A stretch of 64,000 nt of DNA from positions 1,674,001-1,738,000 of the forward strand of contig NZ_LT629771.1 of NCBI RefSeq assembly GCF_900105175.1, in the 5' to 3' direction. Made by a program: the position numbers and the translations under genes. Shown piece after piece: positions 12,499 to 59,322 of this stretch; position 1 is the first letter of the stretch; each line of letters begins with the position of its first letter. The notes beneath the pieces are model-generated. The model ran no database searches, was not told the DNA's origin, and saw only the letters and a program-made list of their open reading frames with translations. This stretch comes from Jiangella sp. DSM 45060 (GTDB taxonomy: Bacteria > Actinomycetota > Actinomycetes > Jiangellales > Jiangellaceae).

Positions 12499-13523
12499 CT
12501 AGGGAGTGTCTGACGGATCATGGGAGCCAGGTGAGTAGCGCGGCGAGGTGGAGTGCACCAAGGTAGTTGCGGGCGTGCTTGTCGTAGCGACTGGCCAGGC
12601 CGCGCCAGTGTTTGAGCTGGCAGAAGCCGCGTTCGACGACGTTGCGTCGCCGGTAGAGGGTCTTGTCGAACCCGACCGGGCGCCCGCCGGCTGAGCCGCG
12701 GCGGCGTCGGTTGGCCTGCTGATCGGCCGGTTCTGGAATGGTGTGGGCGATGTTGCGGCGACGGAGCAGTTCCCGGTTCGCGCGCGAGCTGTAGCCCTTG
12801 TCGGCCAGCACGTAGTCCGGCCGGGTGCGTGGCCGCCCGCCTGCGGGCCTGGCCACCCGTAATCCGGCCATGAGCTGCGGGAACTGGGTGGTGTCGTTGA
12901 CGTTGCCCGCCGTCAGGTGCAGCACCAGCGGCCGGCCCCGCCCGTCGACGAGTGCATGGATCTTGGTGGTCAGCCCGCCCCGGGACCGGCCGATCGCATG
13001 ATCGGCCGGCTCGGCCACCACCGCGGCGACGGGGTGATCGCCACGCGAACACCTGTCATTCGGTCCTGCCCCCCGCGTCCGGCGCCGGTGCGGGCCCGGA
13101 CACGGTCGCGGCGTTGCCACCCACACGCCGAGCCGACGCCCCGTGCTGGTGCACCCGCACCAGCGAGGAGTCCACCGCGACCAGCCAATCCAACTCGCCC
13201 CGAGCATCAGCATCGGCCTGCGCCGCGGCCAGCAACCGCGCCCACGTGCCATCCGAACTCCACCGATTGAGCCGCTCATACGCGGTCTGCCACGGCCCGA
13301 ACCGCCCCTGCGGGATCTCCCGCCACGCTGCCCCGGTCCGGAACTTCCACGCGATCGCCTCGATCACCTGCCGGTGATCACGCCACCGCCCACCCCGCCG
13401 AGGCGTCCGGTCCGGCAGCCGCGGCTCCAACCACGACCACGCCTCATCCGACAACACCCGCCGCTCAACCACACCCAGCATCTTGGACCGAACAAAGACC
13501 AAGATCCGTCAGACACTCCCTAG
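12499..13523. mobile_element. IS5-family insertion sequence (IS427-like group)
   Basis: The ends are perfect inverted repeats: GGAGTGTCTGACGGATC at 12503-12519 and its reverse complement at 13503-13519. CTAG flanks both ends (12499-12502 and 13520-13523), consistent with duplication of a CTAG or TA target. It is about 1.02 kb and carries one transposase in two overlapping frames. The match of both ends, all DDE residues and no internal stop other than the frameshift suggest a recent, possibly active insertion. Confidence 0.93.
12518..13502 (-). CDS. IS5-family transposase made by programmed frameshift (orfA + orfB)
   Basis: orfA (13502 to 13056, 148 residues) has the N-terminal helix-turn-helix (IEAIAWKFRTGAAWREIP) and the first catalytic Asp in VAVDSSLVRVHQHGA. 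orfB, in the frame one base further on, has the second Asp in YVLADKGY and the Glu in YRRRNVVERGFCQLK, an exact Y-(2)-R-(3)-E-(6)-K signature, ending at 12518. The frames overlap at a G6 run (13074-13069) just before the orfA stop, a typical slippery site. A +1 (or -2) shift gives the full DDE enzyme. Confidence 0.9.
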
Positions 13524-44216: not shown

Positions 44217-45413
44217 ATGGAGCGGTTGGTACGGCGCCTCCCGACGTTGTCGGCGCGCGCCCAGGACGTGCTGATCGCCGGTTTCGTCACACTGCTGCAG
44301 GTGCAGGGCACGCATTCGGCGATCGAGCGCGAGCCCGAGCTGGGCGGGCCGGCCGAGGCGCTCGGCATCCCCGGCAACGCGCTGCTCCTGCTCAGCGGCC
44401 TGGTGCTGCTCGTGCGGCGGCGCTGGCCGATCCCGGTTTTCATCGTGACCGGCCTGGTCAGCGTCGCCTACTTCGGCTCCGGGTTCCCCGACGGCCCCGG
44501 CTGGCTGTCGCTGTTCGTGGCCATCTACACGGTGACGGCGCACGGCGACGGGCGGCGCTCGCTGGTCGTCGTCGCGAACGGGCTGACGGTGCTGGCCGTC
44601 GTCTGGATCGCGACAGCCGAGGGCGGGACCGAGCGCATCGGCTGGCTGGCGTTCCGCATCGGCGCCACCATCATGGCCGCCGCGCTGGGCGAGTCGGTCC
44701 GCTCCCGTCGCGTCATCGCCGCCGACGCCGTCCAGCGGGCCGAGGTGGCCGAACGGACCCGCGACGAAGAGGCGCGCCGCCGGGTCGACGCCGAGCGGCT
44801 GCGCATCGCCCGCGAGGTGCACGACACCGTCGCGCACGCCATCGCGATCATCAACGTGCAGGCCGGCGTCACGGCGCACGTGCTGGACAAGCGGCCCGAG
44901 CGGGCCCGCGAGACGCTGCTGACGATCGAGCAGACCAGCGCCCGCGCGCTGCGCGAGATGCGCTCCGTCCTGGGCGTGCTCCGCGGCGACGACGACGGCT
45001 CGCCCGGGCCGAGCCTGGGCGCGCTGGACGAGTTGGTCGCCGTCGGGCGGCGGGCCGGTCTGGACGTCACGGTGACGGGGTCGGTGCCCGCCGGGGTGGT
45101 GCCCGACGACGTCGACCGCGCCGCCTACCGCATCGTCCAGGAGGGCATCACCAACATCATCCGGCACGCCGGGCCGGCCCGCGTCACCATCGGCCTCGAG
45201 CTGGCCGGCGGCGAGCTGCGGGTCTCGATCGCCGACGACGGCGGCGAGCTGAGCGGCCCGGCCGGCCCGCCGGTCGAGCCCGGCCGCGGCCTGGCCGGCA
45301 TGCGGGAGCGCTGCGAGCTGCTCGGCGGCACGTTCGAGGCCGGACCTGACGGCGACGGTTTCAAGGTGTCCGCCCGGCTGCCGCTGAACCGCGTCGAGGC
45401 CACCGCCCGATGA
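44217..45413 (+). CDS. sensor histidine kinase, NarL-partner type
   Basis: 398 residues from ATG 44217. Four to five N-terminal membrane helices (to about residue 165), a HisKA_3 dimerisation region with the phosphorylated His in LRIAREVHDTVAHAIAIINVQAG, and a HATPase_c domain (AYRIVQEGITNIIRHAG, ADDGG, GRGLAGMRERCELLGG). TACCAT (44203-44208) upstream may be a -10. Its stop overlaps the response regulator start (ATGA). The stimulus is unknown. Confidence 0.93.
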   Translation: MERLVRRLPTLSARAQDVLIAGFVTLLQVQGTHSAIEREPELGGPAEALGIPGNALLLLSGLVLLVRRRWPIPVFIVTGLVSVAYFGSGFPDGPGWLSLFVAIYTVTAHGDGRRSLVVVANGLTVLAVVWIATAEGGTERIGWLAFRIGATIMAAALGESVRSRRVIAADAVQRAEVAERTRDEEARRRVDAERLRIAREVHDTVAHAIAIINVQAGVTAHVLDKRPERARETLLTIEQTSARALREMRSVLGVLRGDDDGSPGPSLGALDELVAVGRRAGLDVTVTGSVPAGVVPDDVDRAAYRIVQEGITNIIRHAGPARVTIGLELAGGELRVSIADDGGELSGPAGPPVEPGRGLAGMRERCELLGGTFEAGPDGDGFKVSARLPLNRVEATAR

Positions 45414-46090
45414 CGTCCACCACCGTCCGCGTCGTCCTCGCCGACGACCAGGTGCTCGTGCGCACCGGCTTCCGCGTCCTCCTCGACGTCGAGGACGACA
45501 TCGACGTCGTCGGCGAGGCGGCCACCGGCGCCGAGGCGATCGAGCGCTGCCGCGAGTCCCGTCCCGACGTCGTGCTGATGGACATCCGCATGCCCGGCCT
45601 CGACGGCATCGAGGCGACCCGCCGCATCGCCGCCATCCCCGGCCTCGAGCGGGTGAAGGTGCTGATCCTCACCACGTACGACACCGAGGAATACGTGTTC
45701 GACGCGCTCGAGGCCGGCGCCAGCGGGTTCCTCCTCAAGGACGCCGGCCCGCAGGAGCTGCTGCACGCCATCCGCGTCGTCGCCGCCGGTGAGGCGCTGC
45801 TCGCGCCCAAGATCACCCGCCGGCTGATCGCCCAGTTCACCGCGGTCCGCGCGGCCCACCAGGTGGCCGAGGACCGCCTGGGCGTGCTCACCCAGCGCGA
45901 GCGCGAGGTGCTCGCCCTCGTCGGCACCGGCCGGTCCAACGCCGAGATCGGCGCCGAGCTGTCGCTCAGCCCGGCCACCGCCAAGACCCACGTCAGCCGG
46001 GCGATGATCAAGCTGGGCGCCCGCGACCGCGCCCAGCTCGTCGTCATCGCCTACCAGACCGGCCTCGTCAGCGCCCGCCCGCCGGCCTGA
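45410..46090 (+). CDS. NarL/FixJ-type response regulator
   Basis: 226 residues. Receiver domain with VVLADDQVLVR (acidic pocket), phosphorylated Asp in VVLMDIRMPGLDGIEA, Thr in LILTTYDTEEYV and Lys in GFLLKDAGPQELL. LuxR-type C-terminal helix-turn-helix: LTQREREVLALVGTGRSNAEIGAELSLSPATAKTHV. Translationally coupled to the kinase. Its likely targets include the divergent MMPL gene. Confidence 0.95.
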   Translation: MTSTTVRVVLADDQVLVRTGFRVLLDVEDDIDVVGEAATGAEAIERCRESRPDVVLMDIRMPGLDGIEATRRIAAIPGLERVKVLILTTYDTEEYVFDALEAGASGFLLKDAGPQELLHAIRVVAAGEALLAPKITRRLIAQFTAVRAAHQVAEDRLGVLTQREREVLALVGTGRSNAEIGAELSLSPATAKTHVSRAMIKLGARDRAQLVVIAYQTGLVSARPPA

Positions 46091-46148
46091 CGCCGGCGGT
46101 GACGGCGGGGGATACGGCCGGCAGACGCCGCGGCGGCAGGCTGCCCCC

Positions 46149-46379
46149 ATGCCCCGTCCGCGTTGGTGTGTCGTCGTCGTCCGCTGCTGGGTGGACGGCC
46201 AGGACCTGAAGGTCCGGATGCTGGCGACCGGTGACGTCGAGGGCCGCCTGGTGCGCGGCTCCGCGGCGGCGGCCGGCGAGCAGCTGGGCCGCTGGCTGGC
46301 CGCGCTGCTGGCGCTGGAGCCGCCGCCCGATGACGATGGCCGAGACGACGGCCGAGACGAGCCGGAGACGCCACGGTGA
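46149..46379 (+). CDS. small hypothetical protein before the unusual operon
   Basis: 76 residues. A basic N-terminus, then VVVVRCWVDGQDLKVRMLATGDVEGRLVRGSAAAAGEQLGRWLAALL, which looks like a short beta-hairpin plus helix, then an acidic tail. Codon use fits a real gene. It starts 58 bp after the response regulator and ends 58 bp before the 731-residue protein. A possible -10 (TACGGT 46403-46408) after its stop suggests it may be transcribed apart from the operon. Function unknown. Confidence 0.55.
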   Translation: MPRPRWCVVVVRCWVDGQDLKVRMLATGDVEGRLVRGSAAAAGEQLGRWLAALLALEPPPDDDGRDDGRDEPETPR

Positions 46380-46437
46380 CGATCACGGACACGGACGCCG
46401 CCTACGGTCCCTCCCGTAGTCGTCCCCGGAGGTCGTC

Positions 46438-48633
46438 ATGAACACGCCCGCCATGGTGTCGCCCTTCGTCGGCAGCGCGTTGCAGGCCGAGCGGCCGCCC
46501 GAGCAGGAGGCCGGGCCCACGCTGCCCGGGCTGCTCTCGCCGTTCTCGGCCAGCCGCCTCGAAGCGGGCGGCGACGACGGCGAGCTGTTCGAGGACCTGC
46601 TCGCCGAACTGGAGGACGAGTCGTTCGACGAGGCCGTCGAAGCGCTGGTCGACGAGGCCGCGGCGATGCACCTGACGGCTCCGTGGGACGGTGAGGTGGA
46701 CGGCCGGGACGCCCAGCTGGAGGCGTGGTCGGCCCGGCTGCTCGACGAGGCGCGGCGGGTGCTCGACCACCTGGAGGAGACGTTCGCCGGGCGCACCCCG
46801 GAGTCGGTCGCCGAGGACGAGATCGAGCTGGCCGCGGCGCAGTCGCGCACCGACACGATGAGCCCGGCCGCCGAGCAGTTCCTGGGCGGCCTGGTCAGCA
46901 AGGTGAAGAGCGGCTTCGCGAAGGTCAAGTCCGCCGCCGCGGCCGTGGCCCGCACCGGACTGGGCGTGCTCGGCAGCATCACCGGCCTGGGCCAGCTCAC
47001 CGGCATCCTCAAGAAGCTGGTCGAGCCGCTGGTCAAGCGGGTGCTCAACGCCGCGCGCAACCGGCTGCCGGCGTCGTTGCAGGGCCCGGCGACCGCCCTG
47101 GCGGCCAAGCTCGGCATCCGCGTCCCGGAGACCGGCCGCGAGGTCGCCGAGGACTTCGACCGGCAGTACGCGCAGGCGCTCACCGTCACCGACGAGGCGG
47201 CGGCCGAGGAACTGCTCGCCGCCGCCGACGACGCCGGGCGGGCGGCGGGCGAGGACCCGGTCGCCGGGCTCGACGCCGCCCGCGCGCGGCTGGCCGCCGA
47301 ACTGGCCGAGGCGACGCCGGGCGAGGCGCCGGTCGCGCCGGTGGAGCAGTTCGTCCCCGCCGTCACGGCGGCCATGCCCCTGGTGCGCACCGCGGTCCGG
47401 CTGATCGGCCGGGACCGCGTGAAGCGGCTGCTGGCCGCGCCCTTGGCCGCGTTCATCGCGCCGTTCGTCGGCCACCAGGCGGCGCGGTCGCTGGCCCCGC
47501 CGATCGCGGACACCGGGATGAAGCTGTTGCGCCTGGAGCACGAGGAGGCCGCGGTGCTCGGGGCGGAGGCGCTGGTGTCGACGCTGGAGGAGACGGTGCG
47601 GCAGGTGCTCTCGCTGCCGGCGGAGTCGCTGGCCGACGACGTCCGCGTCGCGGCCGAGGTGCAGGAGGCGTTCGCCGAGGCGGCCGCCCGGTACCTGCCG
47701 CCGCGGGTGCTCCGGGCCGACCTGGGGGAGGACGAGGCCGAGCCCGAGGCCGGCGGGTGGATCATGATGCCGCGCGGCCCGCGCCCGCGCTACCGCTACC
47801 GCGCCTACACCCACCCCTACCGGGTGCTGCTCAGCCGTCCCACGGCCCGGGCGATCGTCGTCAGCGGCGAGGAGACGCTCGAGGAGCGGCTGCTCGACGA
47901 CGGCGTCGCCGCCTGGCCGGCCGAGGTCGAGGTGCAGCTGTTCGAGGCGATGACGGGCACCCGGCGCGGCCACCTGGCCACTGCGGACGAGGAGGACGGC
48001 ACGCTGTCGCCGGACGAGTTCGGCGAGCTGACGCCGCAGGTGGCGGGCGCGCTGCTGCAGCGCCCGGCGCTCGGCGCCCACGGCTCGCGTGCCGCCGGCG
48101 CCCGGGCCGGAGTGGTCGCCGCGCCGGGGCAGCGGCTGTTCCGCGTCGTCGTCCCCGGACGGCCCGGGCACGCGCGGCGGGTGCGGCGGCTGGCCGTCCG
48201 CGTCGACCTGTCCGGACCGGCCCCGCGGCTGCGGGTGCACCTGCGCATCGGCGAGCGGATGGCGCACTCCCTGGCCGCGCAGCTGGACCGCCGCGCGCAC
48301 ACCCAGGTCGTCGCGGCCGTCCGGCGGCTGCTGGGCCCGCCCGTCCGCGACTGGCTGGCGCGGCGGCTGGGCCGGTCCCGCGCCCTGAACGCGCCGCGCC
48401 CCATGCCGCCCGAGCGCCGCCGCGCGCTGGCCGAGGCGCTGGCGGAGGGGATGATCACCGCGCTGGCCAAGGAGCTGCCGGCGGCCGGCCCGACGCTGGC
48501 CGGCGCCGCCCAGGACCCGGCCGCCGGTCTGACCCTGACGTTCACGTTCCCGTTCGCCAGTCGCGACGCGCTCGCGGCCGGCACACCCGGAACGCCCGTG
48601 CTCGCGATACGCCCAGGGCTGCGCCATGGCTGA
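46438..48633 (+). CDS. large protein with N-terminal SPF motifs and amphipathic basic region; unrecognised function
   Basis: 731 residues, no signal peptide. The N-terminus has two SPF motifs (MVSPFVG, LLSPFSASRLE). Residues about 45-125 form an acidic helical block (FEDLLAELEDESFDEAVEALV ...). About 146-227 is an amphipathic, Lys-rich, Gly-rich stretch (FLGGLVSKVKSGFAKVKSA, then LKKLVEPLVKRVLNAARNRLP) that could insert in membranes. Then come helical and mixed regions, including a YRYRAYTHPYRVL segment. The layout resembles uncharacterised proteins recalled from environmental bacteria; no function is assigned. First long gene of the operon; GGAGG precedes ATG, and its end overlaps the next gene by 8 bp. 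Confidence 0.75.
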   Translation: MNTPAMVSPFVGSALQAERPPEQEAGPTLPGLLSPFSASRLEAGGDDGELFEDLLAELEDESFDEAVEALVDEAAAMHLTAPWDGEVDGRDAQLEAWSARLLDEARRVLDHLEETFAGRTPESVAEDEIELAAAQSRTDTMSPAAEQFLGGLVSKVKSGFAKVKSAAAAVARTGLGVLGSITGLGQLTGILKKLVEPLVKRVLNAARNRLPASLQGPATALAAKLGIRVPETGREVAEDFDRQYAQALTVTDEAAAEELLAAADDAGRAAGEDPVAGLDAARARLAAELAEATPGEAPVAPVEQFVPAVTAAMPLVRTAVRLIGRDRVKRLLAAPLAAFIAPFVGHQAARSLAPPIADTGMKLLRLEHEEAAVLGAEALVSTLEETVRQVLSLPAESLADDVRVAAEVQEAFAEAAARYLPPRVLRADLGEDEAEPEAGGWIMMPRGPRPRYRYRAYTHPYRVLLSRPTARAIVVSGEETLEERLLDDGVAAWPAEVEVQLFEAMTGTRRGHLATADEEDGTLSPDEFGELTPQVAGALLQRPALGAHGSRAAGARAGVVAAPGQRLFRVVVPGRPGHARRVRRLAVRVDLSGPAPRLRVHLRIGERMAHSLAAQLDRRAHTQVVAAVRRLLGPPVRDWLARRLGRSRALNAPRPMPPERRRALAEALAEGMITALAKELPAAGPTLAGAAQDPAAGLTLTFTFPFASRDALAAGTPGTPVLAIRPGLRHG

Positions 48634-49891
48634 GCCGGATCCGGCCGAGCCCGAGCGCGCGCAGCTGGCGGCGGAGATCGCGCACTGGCGCAACGCGGTC
48701 GACGCGCTGGCCGACCTCGACACCATCGCCGCGCCCGCCGCCTGGGCGGGCCTGGAGGAGTACCTGCGCATGCGGGTGCGCGACCGGCTCGCCGCGGTGG
48801 TCGCGGACCTCTCGCTGGAGGCCGCGCGCTGCTCGACGGCCCTGAGCCGCGGCGACGACACCGGCGCGGTGCGCCGCGCCGTGCTCGCGCTGCGCCGGCG
48901 CTACCTGCAGGTCGAGACCATTCTCGACTTCTACGGCGACGCGGTCGGCTCGCGCACCAACCCGGCGCTCGCCGCCGTGCTGAGCGGCCTGGACGTCATC
49001 GCCGGCGACAGCCTCGACGTGATCCTCGGCCGGGTCGGCATCGCGACGCCGCCGGCCGTCGTCTACCTCGACAAGGGCCTCGGGGCGGCGATCCTGCGCG
49101 CGGACGTCCGGCTCTGGGACCGCACCAGCCCGTCGCCCGTCGCGGCGATCAAGCTCACCCGGCACAACCTGAGCTACCCGACCGCCATCCTGCACGAATG
49201 TGGTCACCAGGTCGGCCACCTGACCGGCTGGAACGCGGAGCTGGCCGACGCGCTCGCGCTGGCGCTGGCGCCGCGGTCCCGCGAGCTGGCCGAGGCGTGG
49301 CGCTCGTGGGCGAGCGAGCTGGCGGCCGACGTCCACGCGTTCGCCCTGGCCGGCTGGGCGCCGTTGCCGGCGCTGGCCAACGTGGTCGACGGCGGCACCG
49401 CGGCGGTCTACCAGGCGGTCCCCGGCGACCCGCACCCGTTCCCGTGGATCCGGGTGATCGTCAACGCCGCGCTGTGCCGGAGCTGGTTCGGCGCCGGCCC
49501 GTGGGACGGCCTGGCCGTCGCCTGGGCGCGCCGCCACCCGCCGGAACGGGCGCCGTCCGAGATCGCCGGCCTGGCCCGGCTCAGCGTGGACGCGCTCGAC
49601 GACATCGTCCGGGTCTGCACCCGGCAGCCGATGGCCGCGTTCGGCGGCCGGCCGCTGTCCGCCGTCGCCGACCCGGCCCGCCGGTCGCCCGAGGCGCTCG
49701 ACGCCCTGGCCCGCCGCGCCGGGCCGTCGCTGCTGACCTCGCAGTACCTCGCCCGCCGGGAGCCGCTGGCCGTGCTGGCCTGGCTCGCGATCCGCCCGGT
49801 CGCCGACCCGGCGAACGGCGCCGCCCACCGCCGGGACCTGCTCGACTGGCTGGCCCGGCTCTCGCCCGGTGCGCCCGCGCGGGCCGCCTGA
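48626..49891 (+). CDS. putative zinc metallopeptidase-like protein (HEXXH)
   Basis: 421 residues. LHECGHQVGHLTGWN at residues about 189-203 is an HEXXH zinc motif (His190, Glu191, His194). Glu231 in SELAADVHAF, 37 residues on, is placed to be the third zinc ligand as in gluzincins, with Asp235 following. No signal peptide or membrane segment is seen, so it acts inside the cell or is exported by another route. The rest matches no family I know. Overlaps the preceding gene by 8 bp (coupled). It may mature or trim another product of the operon; that is inference. Confidence 0.65.
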   Translation: MAEPDPAEPERAQLAAEIAHWRNAVDALADLDTIAAPAAWAGLEEYLRMRVRDRLAAVVADLSLEAARCSTALSRGDDTGAVRRAVLALRRRYLQVETILDFYGDAVGSRTNPALAAVLSGLDVIAGDSLDVILGRVGIATPPAVVYLDKGLGAAILRADVRLWDRTSPSPVAAIKLTRHNLSYPTAILHECGHQVGHLTGWNAELADALALALAPRSRELAEAWRSWASELAADVHAFALAGWAPLPALANVVDGGTAAVYQAVPGDPHPFPWIRVIVNAALCRSWFGAGPWDGLAVAWARRHPPERAPSEIAGLARLSVDALDDIVRVCTRQPMAAFGGRPLSAVADPARRSPEALDALARRAGPSLLTSQYLARREPLAVLAWLAIRPVADPANGAAHRRDLLDWLARLSPGAPARAA

Positions 49892-49913
49892 CCCACTGGA
49901 GGAGGAGATCGAC

Positions 49914-50420
49914 ATGTCCGCTGACCGACCGCCGGACGGCGGCCTGCCGTCCGAGGCGACGCTGCGCGAGTTCGTGACGGCGCTGCACGACGTCGCCACC
50001 GCGATCACCCAGCACACCACCGAGCTGCACGACGACCGGCGTCGCGGCGACGGTGATCGGCCGGCCTCCGCGGCCCAGCGGCGCGCCGTCCTCGACTACC
50101 GGGTGCTCGGCGCCCTGACCGGCCGGCTCGCGGCGGGCGGCGTCCTGGTGAGCGCGCGGCGGTTCCAGGACAAGGACCGGGAACGCGTCGAGCTGCAGCC
50201 GCTCCCGGCGACCGCGGCCCGGGTGGCCGTGCAGGCCGCCGGCGAGAAGGAGCCGGAACTGCTCGGCATCGACCGCGGCTCCGGCTCCTCCGGGACCGTC
50301 ACGCTCGACCGCACCCGCGGCAAGGACATCGCGCGCCTCGAGGTGTGGAACGGCGCCGGCCAGCCAATCCGGCTGGGACCCCGGCTGCCGCGGCTGCCGG
50401 CCCAGACTCCGGTCGACTGA
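49914..50420 (+). CDS. 168-residue hypothetical protein of the operon
   Basis: From ATG 49914, preceded by a strong GGAGGAGGAGA site, 22 bp after the peptidase-like gene. N-terminal helix (EATLREFVTALHDVATAITQHTTELHDD), then a beta-rich half with SARRFQDKDRERVELQPLP and GTVTLDRTRGKDIARLEVWNGAGQPIRLGPRLP. No known domain is recognised. The strong ribosome site suggests it is made in quantity. It may be a structural or adaptor part. Confidence 0.65.
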   Translation: MSADRPPDGGLPSEATLREFVTALHDVATAITQHTTELHDDRRRGDGDRPASAAQRRAVLDYRVLGALTGRLAAGGVLVSARRFQDKDRERVELQPLPATAARVAVQAAGEKEPELLGIDRGSGSSGTVTLDRTRGKDIARLEVWNGAGQPIRLGPRLPRLPAQTPVD

Positions 50421-50442
50421 CCCGCCGAAGGGGGCCCACGAC

Positions 50443-51747
50443 ATGTTCAGGAACCTTGCCCAGCTGTTCGCCGGAACACCCGGCCGCGACCGCCGCGACG
50501 TCTTCCTCGTCCACCCGATCCAGCTCAGCCGCTGGCTCGACGAGGCGTGGGACAGCGCCCGGACGGTGCCCGCGTTCGGCGACCCGACCACCCTCGAACC
50601 GTTCCTCGGCGCCGCCGACGTCGTGGAGACGCTGAACCTGCCCCGGCCGCAGGTGACCGGCGGCGCCGAGGTCGCGCCGTCCGGCGTGGTGCTGGCCGAC
50701 CCCGACGTCTTCGGCGGCCAGGCGCTGCGGCTGCAGGCCAGCGGGCTGGCGTGGGACCACCTGGCGTACGCGTACCTCGTCGAGTCGACCGGGGTGTTCG
50801 AGGTGCTGGCCGAGGTGGTCCGCCGCCTGGTCACCGGCGAGACCCTGGACACGCTCTCTGCCGGGGGACTGCGCTGGGTGCGGGCCACCGAGGAGCTGTT
50901 CTTCCGCGACCCGCCGCTGTTCTCCATCGGCGGCGTCACCAGCGCCGTGCGGCCGGACGACCGGGTCAACCGGCGCAACTGCATGTGGCGGATGTTCGGC
51001 ATGGACCTCCCGCACCCGATCCCGGCCCGCTGGGCGCGGCCCGGCTCGGCCGGCGAGCAGGACTGGAAGTCCGACACCGGCAGCGGCGTCAACACCGGGT
51101 TCCGGGAGAAGTGGACGGAGCTGCTGCGGCAGGTGTGGCTCGGCATCGAGAACGCCCGCAACGAGAGCGGGCCGAACGCCACCGACAAGGAGTACGTGGC
51201 GTTCCTGTGCACCGCGCTGAAGGACATGATGGCCATGCGCCGCCGTGGTGGGCAGCTCGCCCGCGAGGAGTTCGTGTACGTCGCCACGATGAGCTGGTTC
51301 CACCTGACCCTCGAGACCCCCGACACGCCGATCGTGGTCGACCTGCGGGCCGACGCGACCAACGCGGCGGACCGGCTGGCGAAGATCGCCCAGCGGGTCG
51401 GCCTGCAGCCGGCCGCGCGATCGCGCGAGCTGTTCGAGCTCGCCGACCTGATGTCGGCGATGCTGCGGGCGATCGAGCTGGGCGTGTTCGACACCGGGGA
51501 GAAGGCGGAGACGCTCTACGTGCCGCTGGCCGGCGGCGTCAACGCCCAGTTGCTGCAGGACATGAACCGGATCATCGACCTGTGGCAGTCCGCCACCGGC
51601 GACCGGGTCAAGGACCGGCCGGTCGGCGGCGTGGCCGGGAGCCTGAGCGCCCAGCCGCTGCGCATCCCGGCGCCGCCGCCGCCCGTGCCGTCGCCGCCCA
51701 CCCCGGCGCCGGCGCCCGCCGTCGCCGCCACCAACGGCCGCGGCTGA
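50443..51747 (+). CDS. 434-residue hypothetical protein of the operon
   Basis: Starts 22 bp after the previous gene. N-terminus MFRNLAQLFAG, then FLVHPIQLSRWLDEAWDSARTVPAFGDPTTLEPFLGAADVV; central helical region with LGIENARNESGPNATDKEYVAFL and MAMRRRGGQLAREEFVYVATMSW; a Pro/Ala-rich disordered tail (PAPPPPVPSPPTPAP). No signal peptide or membrane helix. No family is recognised. The tail suggests an extended linker or a surface for partner binding. Confidence 0.65.
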   Translation: MFRNLAQLFAGTPGRDRRDVFLVHPIQLSRWLDEAWDSARTVPAFGDPTTLEPFLGAADVVETLNLPRPQVTGGAEVAPSGVVLADPDVFGGQALRLQASGLAWDHLAYAYLVESTGVFEVLAEVVRRLVTGETLDTLSAGGLRWVRATEELFFRDPPLFSIGGVTSAVRPDDRVNRRNCMWRMFGMDLPHPIPARWARPGSAGEQDWKSDTGSGVNTGFREKWTELLRQVWLGIENARNESGPNATDKEYVAFLCTALKDMMAMRRRGGQLAREEFVYVATMSWFHLTLETPDTPIVVDLRADATNAADRLAKIAQRVGLQPAARSRELFELADLMSAMLRAIELGVFDTGEKAETLYVPLAGGVNAQLLQDMNRIIDLWQSATGDRVKDRPVGGVAGSLSAQPLRIPAPPPPVPSPPTPAPAPAVAATNGRG

Positions 51748-51760
51748 GACGGAGGCCGTG

Positions 51761-53284
51761 ATGACGAGCGAACCGCTCACCGCCACCCTCCTGGAGTCGC
51801 CGTTCGCGCCGGCCGAGGCGACGCCCGAGCCGGCCGGGGAGCAGGAGTCGTGGGGACACCTCTACGAGGCGCCGGGCGGCGAGCCGGCGTTCGAGGAACA
51901 GGCCGCGCCCACCCTGTCGCGGCTGACCCGGACGTTCCCGCCGGAGGCGCTCTCCGAGCTGCCCGACGTGCTGCGGGCCAAACCGCTGGTGAGCGCCGAG
52001 GTGACGGTGCGGACCGAACGGATCCTGTGGATGATCGCCGGGGCGCGGGCGAACGTCGGCGCGGAACCGGGCTGGGGCGACCGCCTGCTGGTCGACCTGC
52101 CCGACCTCCCCAAGGCCGGGCCCAGCAGCACCGTGCACGTGCTGGTCGTCGAGACCGTGCCGTTCGACGTCGTCGAGCAGGACAAGCTCCGGGCGTTCCA
52201 CCGCTTCTGCCAGAAGGCGCACCCGTCGAAGGTGCCGCCGTTCGACGCGGTCTCGGTCGGGCCGTGGACGCTGAACCGCTGGCTGGAGGAGGCGCTGGAG
52301 CTCGCCCCCGGCTCGCTGGCCGCGGCGGCCGGGCTCTCCACGCAGCTGACGGTCGACCAGGCGGCCACCTACAAGCTGGTCGTGTACGCGCTGCTGCCGC
52401 GGACCGTCGGTGCGGTCGTGGCGCCGATGGACCAGCGGTCGCTGCGCGGCTTCCCGTTCGCGAAGGCCACGCTGACGGAGGAGCACGAGCGGCTGATCGC
52501 CTCGCTGGCGCGCGAGATCGTCCGCAGCTGGTACTCGCGGCGTATCGTGACGAAGATCGTCGTGCAGGGCCACACCGACCCCGTCGGCACCCGCGCCTAC
52601 AACCTGGACCTCGGCCGCCGCCGGGCCCAGGCGGTCGCCGCCCGGCTCAAGGAGCTGGTCGCCCAGCAGGCCGGCCGGCTGCCCGTCGGCACGGTGGAGC
52701 GCATCGAGTACGTCATCGAGAGCTACGGCGAGGACCGGCCGTTCTCGACCCGGCTGCACACCCTGAACCGCCGGGTCGAGGTCACCGTGTACCGCGACTA
52801 CACACCGCCGCCGGACCCGCTGGTGCTGGACGAGGTGATCGTGCGGGTGACCCCGCTGCTGTCGTCGCCCACGCTGACGCCGGAGGCGGTGAAGCGGCTG
52901 AAGTGCGTGCTGGCCAAGATCAAGCAGCCCGGCATGGACGACCGGTTCGCCACCGACACCCAGGTGTTCCTCATCAAGCGCGACAACCAGATGCCCAGGC
53001 CGGAGGAGTGGAGCCGCGTGCTGAGCCGGCTGCTGCACCCGGACCTGTTCGGCCCGCAGGTGCCCGAGGACCGGCTCACCACCAACCTGCGGCTGCTCGA
53101 CGAGGACATCGCCGGCGGCATCGTGAAGATGAGCCAGATCATCGCCTACGCCTCCGGCGCCGAGTGGGGCTTGGGGCTGCTGGCCCTGCCGAAGGCGTTC
53201 AAGCAGTTCAACGCCTGGATCATCGAGCGGTTGAAGAATCAGGCGAGCATCTACAGCTGCTACGCGGAGGACTTCCTCGAGTAG
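51761..53284 (+). CDS. OmpA-like domain protein with N-terminal ESPF motif, no signal peptide
   Basis: About 507 residues from ATG 51761 (GGAGG five bases upstream; GTG 51758 is adjacent). The N-terminus has LLESPFAPAEA and an acidic stretch. A domain at about 245-345 is OmpA-C-like: KIVVQGHTDPVGTRAYNLDLGRRRAQAV, then YGEDRPFS and LNRRVEVTVYRD, the usual peptidoglycan-binding pattern. Yet there is no Sec signal or lipobox, which is unusual. The last third is helical. The last gene of the operon, 13 bp after its neighbour, followed by a strong hairpin. It may bind cell wall after non-Sec export, or OmpA-like folding may serve another use. Confidence 0.75.
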   Translation: MTSEPLTATLLESPFAPAEATPEPAGEQESWGHLYEAPGGEPAFEEQAAPTLSRLTRTFPPEALSELPDVLRAKPLVSAEVTVRTERILWMIAGARANVGAEPGWGDRLLVDLPDLPKAGPSSTVHVLVVETVPFDVVEQDKLRAFHRFCQKAHPSKVPPFDAVSVGPWTLNRWLEEALELAPGSLAAAAGLSTQLTVDQAATYKLVVYALLPRTVGAVVAPMDQRSLRGFPFAKATLTEEHERLIASLAREIVRSWYSRRIVTKIVVQGHTDPVGTRAYNLDLGRRRAQAVAARLKELVAQQAGRLPVGTVERIEYVIESYGEDRPFSTRLHTLNRRVEVTVYRDYTPPPDPLVLDEVIVRVTPLLSSPTLTPEAVKRLKCVLAKIKQPGMDDRFATDTQVFLIKRDNQMPRPEEWSRVLSRLLHPDLFGPQVPEDRLTTNLRLLDEDIAGGIVKMSQIIAYASGAEWGLGLLALPKAFKQFNAWIIERLKNQASIYSCYAEDFLE

Positions 53285-53324
53285 GCCTAGGCGAGTCGCG
53301 ATCATGGGAGTACAACATTGACTA

Positions 53325-53358
53325 GGCCGGATCCACGAGCCATCGCGTGGATCCGGCC
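53325..53358 (+). terminator. strong hairpin ending the unusual operon
   Basis: GGCCGGATCCACG (53325-53337) pairs perfectly with CGTGGATCCGGCC (53346-53358), 13 bp around an 8-base loop, 40 bp after the OmpA-like gene and 17 bp before the BTAD regulator. No T-run. It separates the regulator from the operon. Confidence 0.8.
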
Positions 53359-53375
53359 CATGGGGGGTGTCGCTG

Positions 53376-54086
53376 ATGGCCGCGGTGAACCAGATGGCTG
53401 ACCTGCACGTCATCGGGGCCTTCGAGGTGCTCGTCGCCGGTGTCCCGGTGGCGCTGCCCGCCGGTCCGCGGCGGCTGCTGGCCTACCTCGCCGTCAACGG
53501 CGGCGCCCAGCGCCGCGACGCGGTGACGGGGCAGCTGTGGGGCTGGGTGCCGCAGGCGCAGGCGCGGGCACGGCTGCGCACGGCGCTGTGGCGGATCGGC
53601 CAGCTCCCGGCCGGCCTGGTCCGCAGCGGTCGCGACGAGCTCCAGCTGCGGCCATCGGTGCGGGTCGACCTCGCCGAGAGCGCGGGGCTCGCGCGCGGCC
53701 TGCTCGACCCGTCCGGCCGCGACCGGCTGCCCGACTCGGCCGACCTGCTCACCGACGACATCCTCCCCGGCTGGGACGAGGACTGGCTGCAGCTCGAGCG
53801 CGAGCGGCACCGTCAGCTGCGCATCCACGCCCTCGAGGCGCTCAGCCGCCGCCTCACCGCGGCCGGCCGGTTCGGCGCGGCCATCGACGTGGCGTACCGG
53901 GCGATCGCGGCCGAGCCGCTGCGGGAGTCGGCGTGGTGCGCGTTGATCCGCGCCCACCTGGCCGAGGGCAACCGCTCGGTCGCCTCGCACCAGCTCGGCG
54001 AGTACCGGCGGCTGCTGGCCGACGAGCTGGGAGTCGACCCGTCCGAGACGATCGAGGCGCTGCTCAGCCCAGCAGGGGGTGCGTGA
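53376..54086 (+). CDS. BTAD (SARP-type) regulator without effector domain
   Basis: About 236 residues from ATG 53376 (GGGGGG eight bases upstream; GTG 53367 possible). N-terminal OmpR/SARP winged helix: LHVIGAFEVLVAGVPVALPAGPRRLLAYLAV and ARARLRTALWRI. C-terminal BTAD TPR-like domain: WLQLERERHRQLRIHALEALS through GEYRRLLADELGVDPSETIEAL. No ATPase or sensor domain. SARP-type proteins activate clustered genes by binding repeats; it lies just after the unusual operon, so it is the best candidate regulator. Confidence 0.85.
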   Translation: MAAVNQMADLHVIGAFEVLVAGVPVALPAGPRRLLAYLAVNGGAQRRDAVTGQLWGWVPQAQARARLRTALWRIGQLPAGLVRSGRDELQLRPSVRVDLAESAGLARGLLDPSGRDRLPDSADLLTDDILPGWDEDWLQLERERHRQLRIHALEALSRRLTAAGRFGAAIDVAYRAIAAEPLRESAWCALIRAHLAEGNRSVASHQLGEYRRLLADELGVDPSETIEALLSPAGGA

Positions 54087-54217
54087 CGGATAGTGGTGGA
54101 TGCGGGCGGCGTCCAGGGGCCGGTCCAGCAAGGCGTCGAAGTAGCTCGATGCGCTGCGCCGTCGGGTGATGACACAACGCAGCTGGTCGGTTCCTGGGCG
54201 TCGATCCGCGCCGCCGA

Positions 54218-54239
54218 AGATCCGTCAGGTACCCCCTAG
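54218..54239. repeat. relic end of an IS5-family element
   Basis: This 22-bp sequence, AGATCCGTCAG-N5-CCCTAG, matches the right end of the intact IS at 13502-13523 in 18 of 22 positions, including an 11-base exact run and the terminal CCCTAG with the same spacing. The lysE stop codon (54227-54225) lies inside it. The 131 bp between the BTAD gene and this site shows no gene and may be the decayed remainder of the element. Confidence 0.6.
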
Positions 54240-54827
54240 GAGGCGGGCGCCGATCGCGAGCATGACGACGGCGATCAGCCCGTCCAGCACCCGCCAGGCG
54301 CCCGGCCGCTCGAACACCGCGCTGAGCGAGCGTGCGCCGAACCCGAGCGCGGTGAACCAGCTCAGCGACGCCGCCATCGCGCCCGCGCCGTACAGCCAGC
54401 GGCCGTCGTCGCCGTGCTGGTTGGCCAGCGCGCCGAGCAGCACGACGGTGTCGAGGTACACGTGCGGGTTGAGGAAGGTGAAGCCGAGGCAGGCGAGCAC
54501 CGCCGCCCGCGCGGTCGCGGCCGCGCCCGCCCCGGCGACCAGCGACGACGGCCGCAGCGCCCGCCGCGCCGCCAGCGCGCCGTACCCGAGCACGAACGCC
54601 GCCCCGCCGTAGCGCGCCACGTCCAGCGCCCACGGGTGCGTCGTCAGCGCCGCGCCGAGTCCGGCGATCCCGGCGCCGATCAGCACGGCGTCGGCCACCG
54701 CGCACACCGCGACGACAGGGACGACGTGGCGGCGCGCGAGCCCCTGGCGCAGGACGAACGCGTTCTGGGCGCCGATCGCGACGATCAGCGAGAGGGAGGT
54801 GGCGAACCCGACGACGGCACTGGACAC
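54225..54827 (-). CDS. lysE: LysE/ArgO-family amino-acid exporter
   Basis: 200 residues, about six membrane helices. [23 protein letters not shown] and [23 protein letters not shown] are the LysE/ArgO signatures. It exports lysine and arginine or related amino acids. Divergent from the LysG/ArgP-type regulator, as in Corynebacterium glutamicum. Its last four codons and stop are within an IS-end relic, so the C-terminus may have been replaced. Confidence 0.93.
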
Positions 54828-54897
54828 GTCCTCGACGCTAGGGTCGGGGTGAGCCGTAGACCAGCTAAAGTTTCTACGCCTTCCTTAGCATGGCTTC

Positions 54898-55794
54898 ATG
54901 ATGCGCATCGACCTCGCCCAGCTCAGCGCGTTCGCCGCCGTCGTCGAGGAGGGCAGCTTCGAGGCCGCCGCCCGCCGGCTGCACGTCACGCCGTCCGCGG
55001 TGAGCCAGCGGGTCAAGGCGCTGGAGTCGCGGCTGGGCCGCGTCCTGGTCAGCCGCACCCGTCCGGCCGGCGCCACGGAGGCCGGGCAGTGGCTGGCCCG
55101 GTACGCGCGCCAGGTGCGGCTGCTGGAGAGCGAGGCGCTGTCCGGCCTGGCCTCCGGCGACGTCGAGGTGCGGCTGGCGGTCGCCGTCAACGCGGACTCG
55201 TTGGCGACGTGGTTCCTGCCGGCGCTGACGGGGCTGGCGGACGAGCGCGGCGCCCGGTTCGAGCTGCACCAGGAGGACCAGGACCACTCGGCGACGCTGC
55301 TGCGCGAGGGCGCCGTCATGGCCGCCGTCACCGCCGACGCGCACGCCGTGCAGGGCTGCGGCGTGCGCCCGCTCGGCCGCATGCGCTACCTCGGCGTCTC
55401 CACCCCGGCGTTCGCCGGCCGATGGTTCCCGGACGGCCCGACGGCGGCGGCGCTCGGCGCGGCCACCACGCTGGTCTTCAACCGCAAGGACGCGCTGCAG
55501 TCGCGGTTCGCCCGCGAGCTCGCCGGCCGCCGGGTCGACCCGCCGGTCACCGTGCTGCCGTCGTCGGTGGGGTTCGCCGACGCGACGATCCTGGGGCTGG
55601 CGTGGGCGATGCTGCCCGAGTCGATGGCCCGCGCCGCCCTCGACGACGGCCGGCTGGTCGAGATCGCTCCGGGCCGCCACCTCGACGTGCCGCTGTACTG
55701 GCAGCGCTGGAAGCTGGCGTCGCCGCTGCTGGACGAGCTGACCGACGCCGTCGTCGCGGCGGCCGCGGCTCAGCTGCGGGCGCCGAAGCCGTAG
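54898..55794 (+). CDS. lysG: LysR-family regulator of the LysG/ArgP type
   Basis: 298 residues (ATG 54898, or 54901). Helix-turn-helix at the N-terminus: LAQLSAFAAVVEEGSFEAAARRLHVTPSAVSQRVKALE; effector domain with FNRKDALQSRFARE and LPSSVGFADATILGLAWAMLP, as in ArgP/LysG. It senses basic amino acids and turns on the divergent exporter. The 70-bp shared region is AT-richer and holds GCTAAAGTTTCTACG, a likely LysR site. The 3' end overlaps the convergent TetR gene by 25 bp. Confidence 0.93.
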   Translation: MMRIDLAQLSAFAAVVEEGSFEAAARRLHVTPSAVSQRVKALESRLGRVLVSRTRPAGATEAGQWLARYARQVRLLESEALSGLASGDVEVRLAVAVNADSLATWFLPALTGLADERGARFELHQEDQDHSATLLREGAVMAAVTADAHAVQGCGVRPLGRMRYLGVSTPAFAGRWFPDGPTAAALGAATTLVFNRKDALQSRFARELAGRRVDPPVTVLPSSVGFADATILGLAWAMLPESMARAALDDGRLVEIAPGRHLDVPLYWQRWKLASPLLDELTDAVVAAAAAQLRAPKP

Positions 55795-56363
55795 ATCGTC
55801 GTGCGGGCGAGCGCCTCGGCGTCCTCCGGCCGGGGGAGCGCGACACCGGTGAGGATGCGCAGCACGATCATCCCGGTGAACCAGTCGAACACCAGTTGGC
55901 GGTCGACGTCCGGGGGGAGCTCGCCGCGGGCGATCGCGCGGTCGAAGACGGCGCTGGACCCGGCCAGCCGGGTGGCCAGCGAGGCGCGGTACAGCTCGGC
56001 GACCCGGGGGTCGCGGGCGGCCTCCTTCACGGCCAGCCGGAAGAACGCCAGGCCGTCGTCGCTGCCGGCCAGGGTCAGGATGTCGGTGTAGATCTCGGCG
56101 AGGTCGCCGTGCAGCGAGCCGGTGTCGGGGACCCGCACCTCCAGCTCGAACAGCGTCTCGGCGGCGGCCAGTGCCAGGTCGTCCTTGCTGGCCCAGCGGC
56201 GGTACAGCGTCGCCTTGCCGACCCCGGCCCGCTCGGCCACCGCGTCGACCGTCATGCCGTCGACGCCGCGCTCGAGCAGCAGGCCGGCCGCGGCCTCCCG
56301 GATGCGGCGGTCCGCCTCCGGGTCGCGCGGCCGGCCGCGCCGGGGCTCAGCCGGGTTGCTCAT
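55770..56363 (-). CDS. TetR-family regulator
   Basis: 197 residues. RGRPRDPEADRRIREAAAGLL and the helix-turn-helix MTVDAVAERAGVGKATLYRRWASKDDL are TetR; the C-terminal ligand domain is of the common TetR_C type. Second gene of an operon with the MFS transporter, whose end it overlaps by 17 bp. It should repress the operon through the repeats at 57912-57967 until an exported compound binds. Confidence 0.93.
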   Translation of the reverse strand: MSNPAEPRRGRPRDPEADRRIREAAAGLLLERGVDGMTVDAVAERAGVGKATLYRRWASKDDLALAAAETLFELEVRVPDTGSLHGDLAEIYTDILTLAGSDDGLAFFRLAVKEAARDPRVAELYRASLATRLAGSSAVFDRAIARGELPPDVDRQLVFDWFTGMIVLRILTGVALPRPEDAEALARTTIYGFGARS

Positions 56364-58101: not shown

Positions 58102-58707
58102 ATGCGACTGACCGTCACCACCAACGTCTCCGTCGACGGCGTGATGCAGGGGCTCGGCGGGCCGGACGAGGACCGCCGCGGCGGGTTCGAGCGCGGCGGC
58201 TGGGCGCTGCCGCTGTTCGACGGCGAAGGCGAGACGTACCTCAGCGAGATCTACGGGCGCGCCGACGCGTTCCTGTTCGGCCGCCGGACGTACGAGATCT
58301 TCGCCGCCTCGTGGGGGACGTGGGCCGACCCCGGCGACAGCCTCATCTGGACGGCGCTGAACACGCGGCCCAAGTATGTCGCCTCGGCCACGCTCACCGG
58401 CCCGGCGTGGGCGGAGACCACCGTCGTGGCCGGCGACGTCGCGACGATCCGGGAGCTGAAGGCCCGGCCGGGCGGTGAGCTGCAGGTGCACGGCAGCGGC
58501 GAGCTGGCCCGCTGGCTGCTCGCGAACGACCTCGTCGACGAGCTGACGCTGCTGACCTATCCGGTCGTCGTCGGCCAGGGCCGGCGGCTGTTCCCGGACG
58601 ACGGCCCCGACGCGGCGCTCGAGCTGGCCGGCGCGCGGGCCTTCGCCAACGGCATCACGGCGCACGTGTACCGGCCGGCCGGACGCCCGCAATACGCCGC
58701 GAGCTGA
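58102..58707 (+). CDS. RibD-C/DHFR-family protein, copy 1
   Basis: 201 residues from ATG 58102, after GAGGAGAGG. LTVTTNVSVDGVMQGLGG, LFGRRTYEIFAASW (nucleotide-binding) and LVDELTLLTYPVVVGQGRRLFPDDGP are the RibD C-terminal pattern. About half of its residues are identical to the next gene, so the pair is a tandem duplication. First gene of the sigma-factor cluster; the substrate is unknown. Confidence 0.9.
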   Translation: MRLTVTTNVSVDGVMQGLGGPDEDRRGGFERGGWALPLFDGEGETYLSEIYGRADAFLFGRRTYEIFAASWGTWADPGDSLIWTALNTRPKYVASATLTGPAWAETTVVAGDVATIRELKARPGGELQVHGSGELARWLLANDLVDELTLLTYPVVVGQGRRLFPDDGPDAALELAGARAFANGITAHVYRPAGRPQYAAS

Positions 58708-58719
58708 CGGGGCACGATC

Positions 58720-59322
58720 ATGAAGCTGACCACCGTCATGCAGGTCTCCGTCGACGGCGTCATGCAGGCCAACGGCGGGTCGCACCCCGACCTCGACCCC
58801 GGGTTCGACCGCGGCGGCTGGGCGCTGCCGCTGTTCGACGACGAGGCGCTCGGCTACGTCGACGAGTTGTGCGAGCGGGCCGCCGCGTTCCTGTTCGGCC
58901 GCCGCACCTACGAGTTCTTCGCCGGCACGTGGGGCGCGATCGACGCGATGGCGGACACCCGCATCGGGCGCGCGTTCAACGCCCGGCCCAAGTACGTCGC
59001 CTCGACGACGCTCACCGACCCGGGCTGGGCGCCCGCCACCGTCGTCGGCGGCGTGGACGCCATCCGCGAGCTGAAGGGCGCCCCGGGTGGCGAGCTGCAG
59101 GTGCACGGCAGTGGCCGGCTGGTCCGCGCACTGCTCGCGAACGACCTCGTCGACGAGCTGACGCTGCTCGTCGCGCCGGTGGTCGTCGGCCGGGGCACCA
59201 GGCTGTTCCCGGACGACGGCCCGGACCTCGCGCTCGAGCTCCTCGAGTCGCGCGCCTTCCCGAAGGGCTTCGCGCTCCAGGTCTACCGACCGGCCGGACG
59301 TCCGCGGTACGCCACGGCGTGA
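58720..59322 (+). CDS. RibD-C/DHFR-family protein, copy 2
   Basis: 200 residues, 12 bp after copy 1. LTTVMQVSVDGVMQANGG, LFGRRTYEFFAGTW, and LVDELTLLVAPVVVGRGTRLFPDDGP align to copy 1 with no large gaps. Both are complete, so the duplication has been kept, perhaps as a heteromer or for two substrates. Confidence 0.9.
   Translation: MKLTTVMQVSVDGVMQANGGSHPDLDPGFDRGGWALPLFDDEALGYVDELCERAAAFLFGRRTYEFFAGTWGAIDAMADTRIGRAFNARPKYVASTTLTDPGWAPATVVGGVDAIRELKGAPGGELQVHGSGRLVRALLANDLVDELTLLVAPVVVGRGTRLFPDDGPDLALELLESRAFPKGFALQVYRPAGRPRYATA

Follow-up and report, generated by a model that had tools for sequence, protein, structure and literature searches.

A candidate modular effector system in Jiangella: a constant four-gene core with interchangeable, mostly peptidoglycan-directed cargo

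A stretch of 64,000 nucleotides from the closed, 7.49 Mb genome of Jiangella sp. DSM 45060 (G000:C1:1674001-1738000, from now on referred to as the window) harbours an operon of five long genes, P1 to P5, which may encode an undescribed modular effector system with a constant core (P1-P4) and interchangeable, mostly peptidoglycan-directed effectors, a reading to which we give about an even chance. The modular design itself is well supported: P1-P2-P3-P4 are found in identical order and strand in ten carriers outside Jiangella (three Amycolatopsis, two Cellulomonas, Naasia, Geodermatophilus, Streptomyces, Nocardioides and Salinibacterium), giving a total of 15 carrier genomes in 8 actinobacterial genera, and the one or two genes located 3' of P4 differ among the loci. 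A preliminary description of the window had proposed that the five genes belong together as a candidate undescribed system, and for P1-P4 this was borne out by their co-occurrence in fixed order in the 15 genomes and by searches against Pfam, NCBIfam, PHROGs and PADLOC, none of which gave a match above chance. The fifth gene is no fixed component, since the content of its slot differs from locus to locus. No description of such a system was found in open-access papers.

Constant core and island boundaries

A scan of ~85,000 species revealed 12 loci, two of them in already-known Jiangella; the number is a lower bound, the search patterns being actinobacterial and the combined actino- and proteobacterial P2 alignment too diverse for a pattern search. 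Genes in the related loci were called from codon usage, with approximate start sites. Of the 11 loci in which the overlap of the P1 and P2 genes was measured, 10 have 8 bp and one has 17 bp, and the distance matrices of P1, P2 and P4 are correlated (Mantel r 0.80–0.95, or 0.55–0.91 when the diverged Jiangella copy in G134 is left out, all p ~0.0002), a correlation which partly reflects the common descent of the carriers. P4 was also searched for in 297 genomes sampled evenly across the class; Jiangella alone gave a match, showing that the system is rare and patchy. A profile match in a distant actinobacterial genome (G561) consisted of a 95-residue fragment close to the end of a contig and was disregarded.

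Within Jiangella the operon is present in 5 of 12 genomes. Comparing the window (45300–55900) by blastn with four empty sites (G144, G183, G075 and G059) showed that homology ends at ~46075–46097 and returns at ~54238–54248, and both flanking genes, encoding a response regulator and a LysE-like protein, are kept in the operon-less congeners. Because homology to the congeners breaks at ~46097 and ~54238, the 8.1-kb block in between is a unit that is gained or lost as a whole; it contains P1-P5, a small upstream gene (P0), a hairpin, a regulator gene (REG) and no further called genes. The operon is accessory and, in the proposed reading, horizontally moving. In G134, a single-contig Jiangella genome, a diverged copy is located at another place in the chromosome, with the regulator, P0, P1 (33% identity), P2 (47%) and P4 (39%), a 106-aa (amino acid) protein in the place of P3 and a different protein in the place of P5.

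The insertion site between the response regulator and the LysE-like gene (L039-L042) is one of recurrent gene gain across Jiangella, occupied in other congeners by a 683-aa protein, oxidoreductase-like genes or a MazF-like toxin-antitoxin pair, named by sequence appearance. In Geodermatophilus, genes that look integrase-, excisionase- and relaxase/helicase-like, again judged by appearance, are situated directly 3' of the operon (L034:17563-21204).

The cargo slot and the SPF motif

In the window the slot encodes a protein with an OmpA-like domain (Pfam PF00691, 40.3 bits against a cut-off of 27.2), as the preliminary description had recognised. The corresponding position holds VanY in G134, DUF4056 and DUF2515-like proteins in Amycolatopsis and Cellulomonas, PG_binding with Phage_lysozyme2 in Naasia, M23 with PG_binding in Salinibacterium and M23, PG_binding and PLD in Nocardioides. 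In Streptomyces it holds Amidase_2, slightly below the cut-off, and in Geodermatophilus a pesticin-like lysozyme slightly below the curated cut-off together with a module common to other cargos. Modules recur among the cargos in differing combinations, giving them a mosaic appearance, and judging from these domains the slot is in most cases probably peptidoglycan-directed. A strongly hydrophobic, signal-peptide-like start was found in none of the 15 cargos.

The preliminary description had also pointed out SPF motifs, and their frequency is far above chance. The motif [S/T]PF occurs within the first 100 residues of all 12 P1 homologues and of 9 of the 15 cargos, as against 3 of 190 background proteins of the same loci. 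For the cargos this corresponds to a Fisher p of 7e-10, a value that overstates independence since the loci share ancestry, and shuffled N-termini gave on average 0.5 in 15. The residues around the motif form an acid-rich leader, and in the fused Geodermatophilus cargo the motif is found both at residue 13 and at residue 1048, the second copy immediately before a module common to three other cargos. SPF may act as a sorting or assembly tag.

Core proteins and organisation of the locus

In P2, a HExxH motif is followed 35–38 residues on by E-xxx-D, and the arrangement is invariant in 16 of 16 sequences, four of which come from Alpha- and Betaproteobacteria. HExxH with a downstream E and xxxD forms the zinc site of gluzincin peptidases (thermolysin-like enzymes), and P2 is accordingly predicted from its motif spacing to be a gluzincin metallopeptidase. 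Since the genes of P1 and P2 overlap, P1 may be the substrate or partner of P2. Relatives of P2 (~30% identity) are located on megaplasmids of Rhizobium, Ensifer and Paraburkholderia, where the P2 gene is again directly preceded by one for an acidic protein that has a segment either rich in glycine or amphipathic; in two of the megaplasmid loci there are genes whose products have PG_binding, glucosaminidase, DUF2272 or GIY-YIG domains. The acidic amphipathic proteins gave a suggestive match to P1 (71% probability over 71 columns). P4 was not detectable in the proteobacterial loci: a comparison with their large third protein indicated no relationship (hhalign probability 0.5%), and a 388-aa protein of L022 gave a hint over 40 columns only. 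The larger loci L019-L022 also encode aminotransferase-like and amidohydrolase-like proteins and a strongly conserved protein of 540–724 aa, for which a Pfam scan of one member (L019) gave no match. A predicted 'GIM-2 beta-lactamase' of 102 bp on a plasmid record (L022:1561-1662) is probably a spurious resistance call.

The charge distribution of P1 is shared by all 12 homologues, with a net charge of -15 to -29 over the first 145 residues and +4 to +20 over the following 80, the cationic stretch forming amphipathic helices in the protein of the window. An AlphaFold model based on 14 sequences (predicted local distance difference test, pLDDT, 67; predicted template modelling score, pTM, 0.34) proposes a disordered, SPF-bearing N-terminus, a helical stretch ending near residue 420 and an alpha/beta part at the C-terminus. 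This charge and helix pattern would fit a latent membrane-active protein. P4 is the best conserved core protein, with 36–98% identity and a ratio of non-synonymous to synonymous substitution rates (dN/dS) of 0.07, and was modelled as all-helical (pLDDT 66, pTM 0.70); that it serves as an adaptor is a guess.

Searches of P1, P2 and P4 against PDB sequences gave no convincing match, and Foldseek with the P1 and P4 models returned E values of ~1 or worse. VIA-align gave a best Z of 6.7 for P4 (TIPE3, 128 residues, root mean square deviation 5.4) and 5.7 for P1, within the chance range for helical models. Matches to a cyanophage pre-ejectosome protein (Z 5.5, 78 residues) and to a phage ejectosome protein (E 3.8) were rejected as too weak. 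Phage genomes contained no match for the cargo or a P2-like protein, and viral contigs scanned with a P4 pattern yielded no relative.

The features of the locus are given in Table 1. The five reading frames of the preliminary description were recovered at the lengths it had reported, as were the spacing between them (exactly -8, 22, 22 and 13 bp), the perfect hairpin and the HEXXH site of the 421-aa protein. The genes of the proposed five-gene unit thus stand, while its extent does not: the 76-aa gene upstream and the BTAD regulator downstream also belong to it. Between this genome and one congener dN/dS is 0.06–0.42 across the operon genes, which supports their being coding and indicates purifying selection.

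Table 1. Positions in the window of the genes and sequence features of the island
Feature	Position	Strand	Description	Basis
P0	46149..46379	+	76 aa, resembles 60–90 aa proteins adjoining the operon in other carriers	
P1	46438..48633	+	731 aa core protein, candidate membrane-active carrier or pore	homologue alignment, AlphaFold model, charge profile, motif statistics
P1, first SPF motif	46459..46467	+	residues 8–10	motif scan
P1, second SPF motif	46537..46545	+	residues 34–36	motif scan
P1, cationic amphipathic helices	46864..47112	+	residues 143–225	AlphaFold model, charge profile
P2	48626..49891	+	421 aa predicted gluzincin metallopeptidase, 8-bp overlap with P1 gene	HExxH-(35-38)-E-xxx-D, alignments
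P2, HECGH zinc-binding site	49193..49207	+	residues 190–194	alignment, motif spacing
P2, predicted third zinc ligand	49316-49318	+	E231	alignment, motif spacing
P3	49914..50420	+	168 aa, weakly conserved, equivalent position in other loci	alignment
P4	50443..51747	+	434 aa, strongly conserved, all-helical, proline-rich tail	alignment, AlphaFold, dN/dS 0.07
P5	51761..53284	+	507 aa, variable cargo slot, here SPF tag and OmpA-like domain	Pfam, PDB matches, slot comparison
P5, cargo SPF motif	51797..51805	+	residues 13–15	motif scan
P5, OmpA-like domain	52451..52747	+	residues 231–329, HTDxxG...YNxxLxxRRRA signature	Pfam PF00691 E 4e-10, PDB matches
Hairpin	53325..53358	.	13-bp stem, 8-nt loop, between cargo and REG	sequence, congener comparison
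REG	53367..54086	+	239 aa BTAD-type (SARP-like) transcriptional regulator	Pfam BTAD E 4e-18
Accessory island	46097..54237	.	8.1 kb	blastn against congener empty sites

When the intergenic stretch containing the hairpin was mononucleotide-shuffled 3000 times, a perfect stem of at least 11 bp appeared once. Three congeners largely retain the stem; in G227, for example, it differs by a T-A to C-G change and a G.U pair. There is no T-run after the stem, and because of this the hairpin may be either a terminator or a leader structure of the regulator. Homologues of REG adjoin the operon in G134, L032, L033, L036 and L037; SARP sites, sought as direct repeats upstream, gave nothing convincing.

Elsewhere in the window, two adjacent genes at 58102–59322, encoding proteins of 201 and 200 aa, resemble tandem paralogues with the common start LTxxxxxSVDGVMQ, and at 12518–13021 there is a transposase-like fragment (GRSRGGLTTKIHALVDGRGRPL) whose frame is incomplete.

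Possible mode of action, alternatives and known systems

In the proposed effector system the SPF tag would serve to join cargo to P1, or to direct the two to one receptor, with P4 as a candidate adaptor. P1 would be a latent membrane-inserting protein, its acidic N-terminal part preceding the cationic amphipathic helices, and P2 would cleave P1 and/or the tag, switching on the complex. P1 might then take the SPF-tagged cell-wall enzymes across membranes or set them free there, so that enzymes devoid of a signal peptide could reach peptidoglycan, be it a competitor's or the producer's own; the BTAD regulator would presumably control expression. A further-reaching proposal is that of a new protein-delivery apparatus, unrelated to secretion systems and phage tails, in which protease-activated P1 and SPF-tagged enzymes breach the envelope and which would exist in actinobacterial and proteobacterial forms with the metallopeptidase and the layout in common; this is tentative, and we rate it as less likely than not.

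Several points weigh against an effector system of this kind. Some cargos are not clearly cell-wall directed (DUF2515-like, PLD and proteins of unknown type), and as far as can be told from its domain the OmpA cargo of the window would bind peptidoglycan and not cut it. The motif [S/T]PF is absent from the first 100 residues of 6 of the 15 cargos, the G134 cargo having a related MPF near its C-terminus. The roles of P1 as a pore and P4 as an adaptor are guesses, as their models are of moderate to low confidence and matched no fold. Finally, in contrast to typical interbacterial toxin loci, an immunity gene was not evident: the gene calls, made with no family search for immunity proteins, showed no conserved small gene after the cargo. 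The lack of an evident immunity gene implies either that the effectors are harmless to the producer or that the system is suicidal, and it is this point that separates the effector reading from programmed self-lysis or wall remodelling.

According to the latter, P1 would be holin-like, the cargo endolysin-like and P2 the trigger, leading to release of contents or developmental cell death. Besides the lack of an evident immunity gene, the endolysin-like domains, the starts of the cargos without a signal-peptide-like stretch and the single operon with a BTAD regulator are all consistent with it. A diverse, mosaic cargo, however, suggests an arms race more than a housekeeping lysin, cargos that are not lysins exist (OmpA, DUF2515-like, PLD) and the distribution is patchy and island-like, and we regard self-lysis as unlikely.

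Clearly less probable is an anti-phage or stress-triggered abortive system, where P2 would activate a P1 pore by a gasdermin-like logic and the cargo would finish the cell. The overlap between the protease gene and that of a putative membrane-active protein, and the location of the island where genes have been gained repeatedly, would agree with such a role, but PADLOC gave matches only between the OmpA domain and ZorB, which share an OmpA-type domain, and between the regulator and a TPR model. The core moreover lacks the nuclease, NADase or sensor domains typical of defence, and the cargo is mainly cell-wall directed. Similarly improbable is an intracellular protein assembly, a compartment or storage body sequestering tagged cargo. 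Encapsulins use cargo-loading peptides, which the short tag on both scaffold and cargo resembles, and the cargo carries no secretion signal; yet no shell-like fold or capsid-family match was obtained, and cell-wall enzymes in the cytoplasm make little sense unless released later.

The preliminary description had linked the operon to contractile injection systems and suggested that their core genes be sought elsewhere in the genome. At 1,867,319 of this genome, 140 kb from the operon, there is indeed a sheath gene, next to which lie genes that look tube- and baseplate-like. The cluster around it (G000:C1:1866047-1878625; L008, L009), downstream of the operon, resembles extracellular contractile injection systems (eCIS) and is followed by very large proteins encoded on the opposite strand. 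Of the 12 Jiangella genomes five contain the operon, three the sheath and one both, so that the sheath is absent from 4 of the 5 Jiangella carriers and two sheath-bearing Jiangella lack the operon. It is also absent from 6 of the 10 other carriers, and overall from 10 of 15, including G134. EccB (PF05108) of the type VII system is likewise absent from 10 of the 15, including all five Jiangella; for both genes, absence from draft genomes is weaker evidence than absence from the single-contig G134. As sheath and EccB are each missing in 10 of 15 carriers, the operon is not tied to contractile injection or type VII secretion, and the suggested link is not supported. Loading of the effectors in trans by the injection system of this genome, towards which the nearby sheath cluster and the BTAD regulators and peptidoglycan hydrolases reported for eCIS loci (PMC8213781) would point, is largely refuted by these absences. 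Nor was an SPF-tagged effector seen beside the cluster, the sole [S/T]PF protein in two 20-kb stretches being located upstream of the cluster and not effector-like, and we regard such loading as very improbable.

If the modular effector reading is true, it adds another bacterial route by which enzymes devoid of signal peptides reach cell walls, built from unannotated families. It would also provide a function for four unknown families, an explanation of the recurring SPF tag and a set of cell-wall enzymes from the cargo slot. How Gram-positive bacteria deliver such enzymes is poorly understood beyond type VII secretion, and the locus is present in genomes without EccB.

When compared with known systems, P2 has the thermolysin-like zinc site in common with the gluzincins (MA clan), but neither Pfam nor PDB gave a match at family level, the remainder of the protein being unrelated to anything found. 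Residues 231–343 of P5 carry the signature of the C-terminal peptidoglycan-binding domains of OmpA and Pal, here in a protein that lacks a signal peptide and in which the domain is flanked by two regions of unknown fold. The eCIS loci, in which a DUF4157 metallopeptidase, BTAD regulators and peptidoglycan hydrolases occur and effectors are situated at the 3' end (PMC8213781), share with the operon a HExxH protein, a BTAD regulator and peptidoglycan-degrading 3' effectors. Unlike them the operon contains no sheath, tube or baseplate genes, P1, P3 and P4 are unmatched, and P2 does not match DUF4157 (no match at E 1 in a Pfam search). The closest resemblance in design, a constant core with swappable, mosaic 3' effectors, is to known polymorphic effector and toxin systems, and the effector types overlap as well (amidase, lysozyme, M23, pesticin-like); the core belongs to none of those that could be tested. 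From these systems the operon differs in that P1-P4 fall outside the tested families, in that no immunity gene was evident in the gene calls, and in its tag, which is a short N-terminal SPF.

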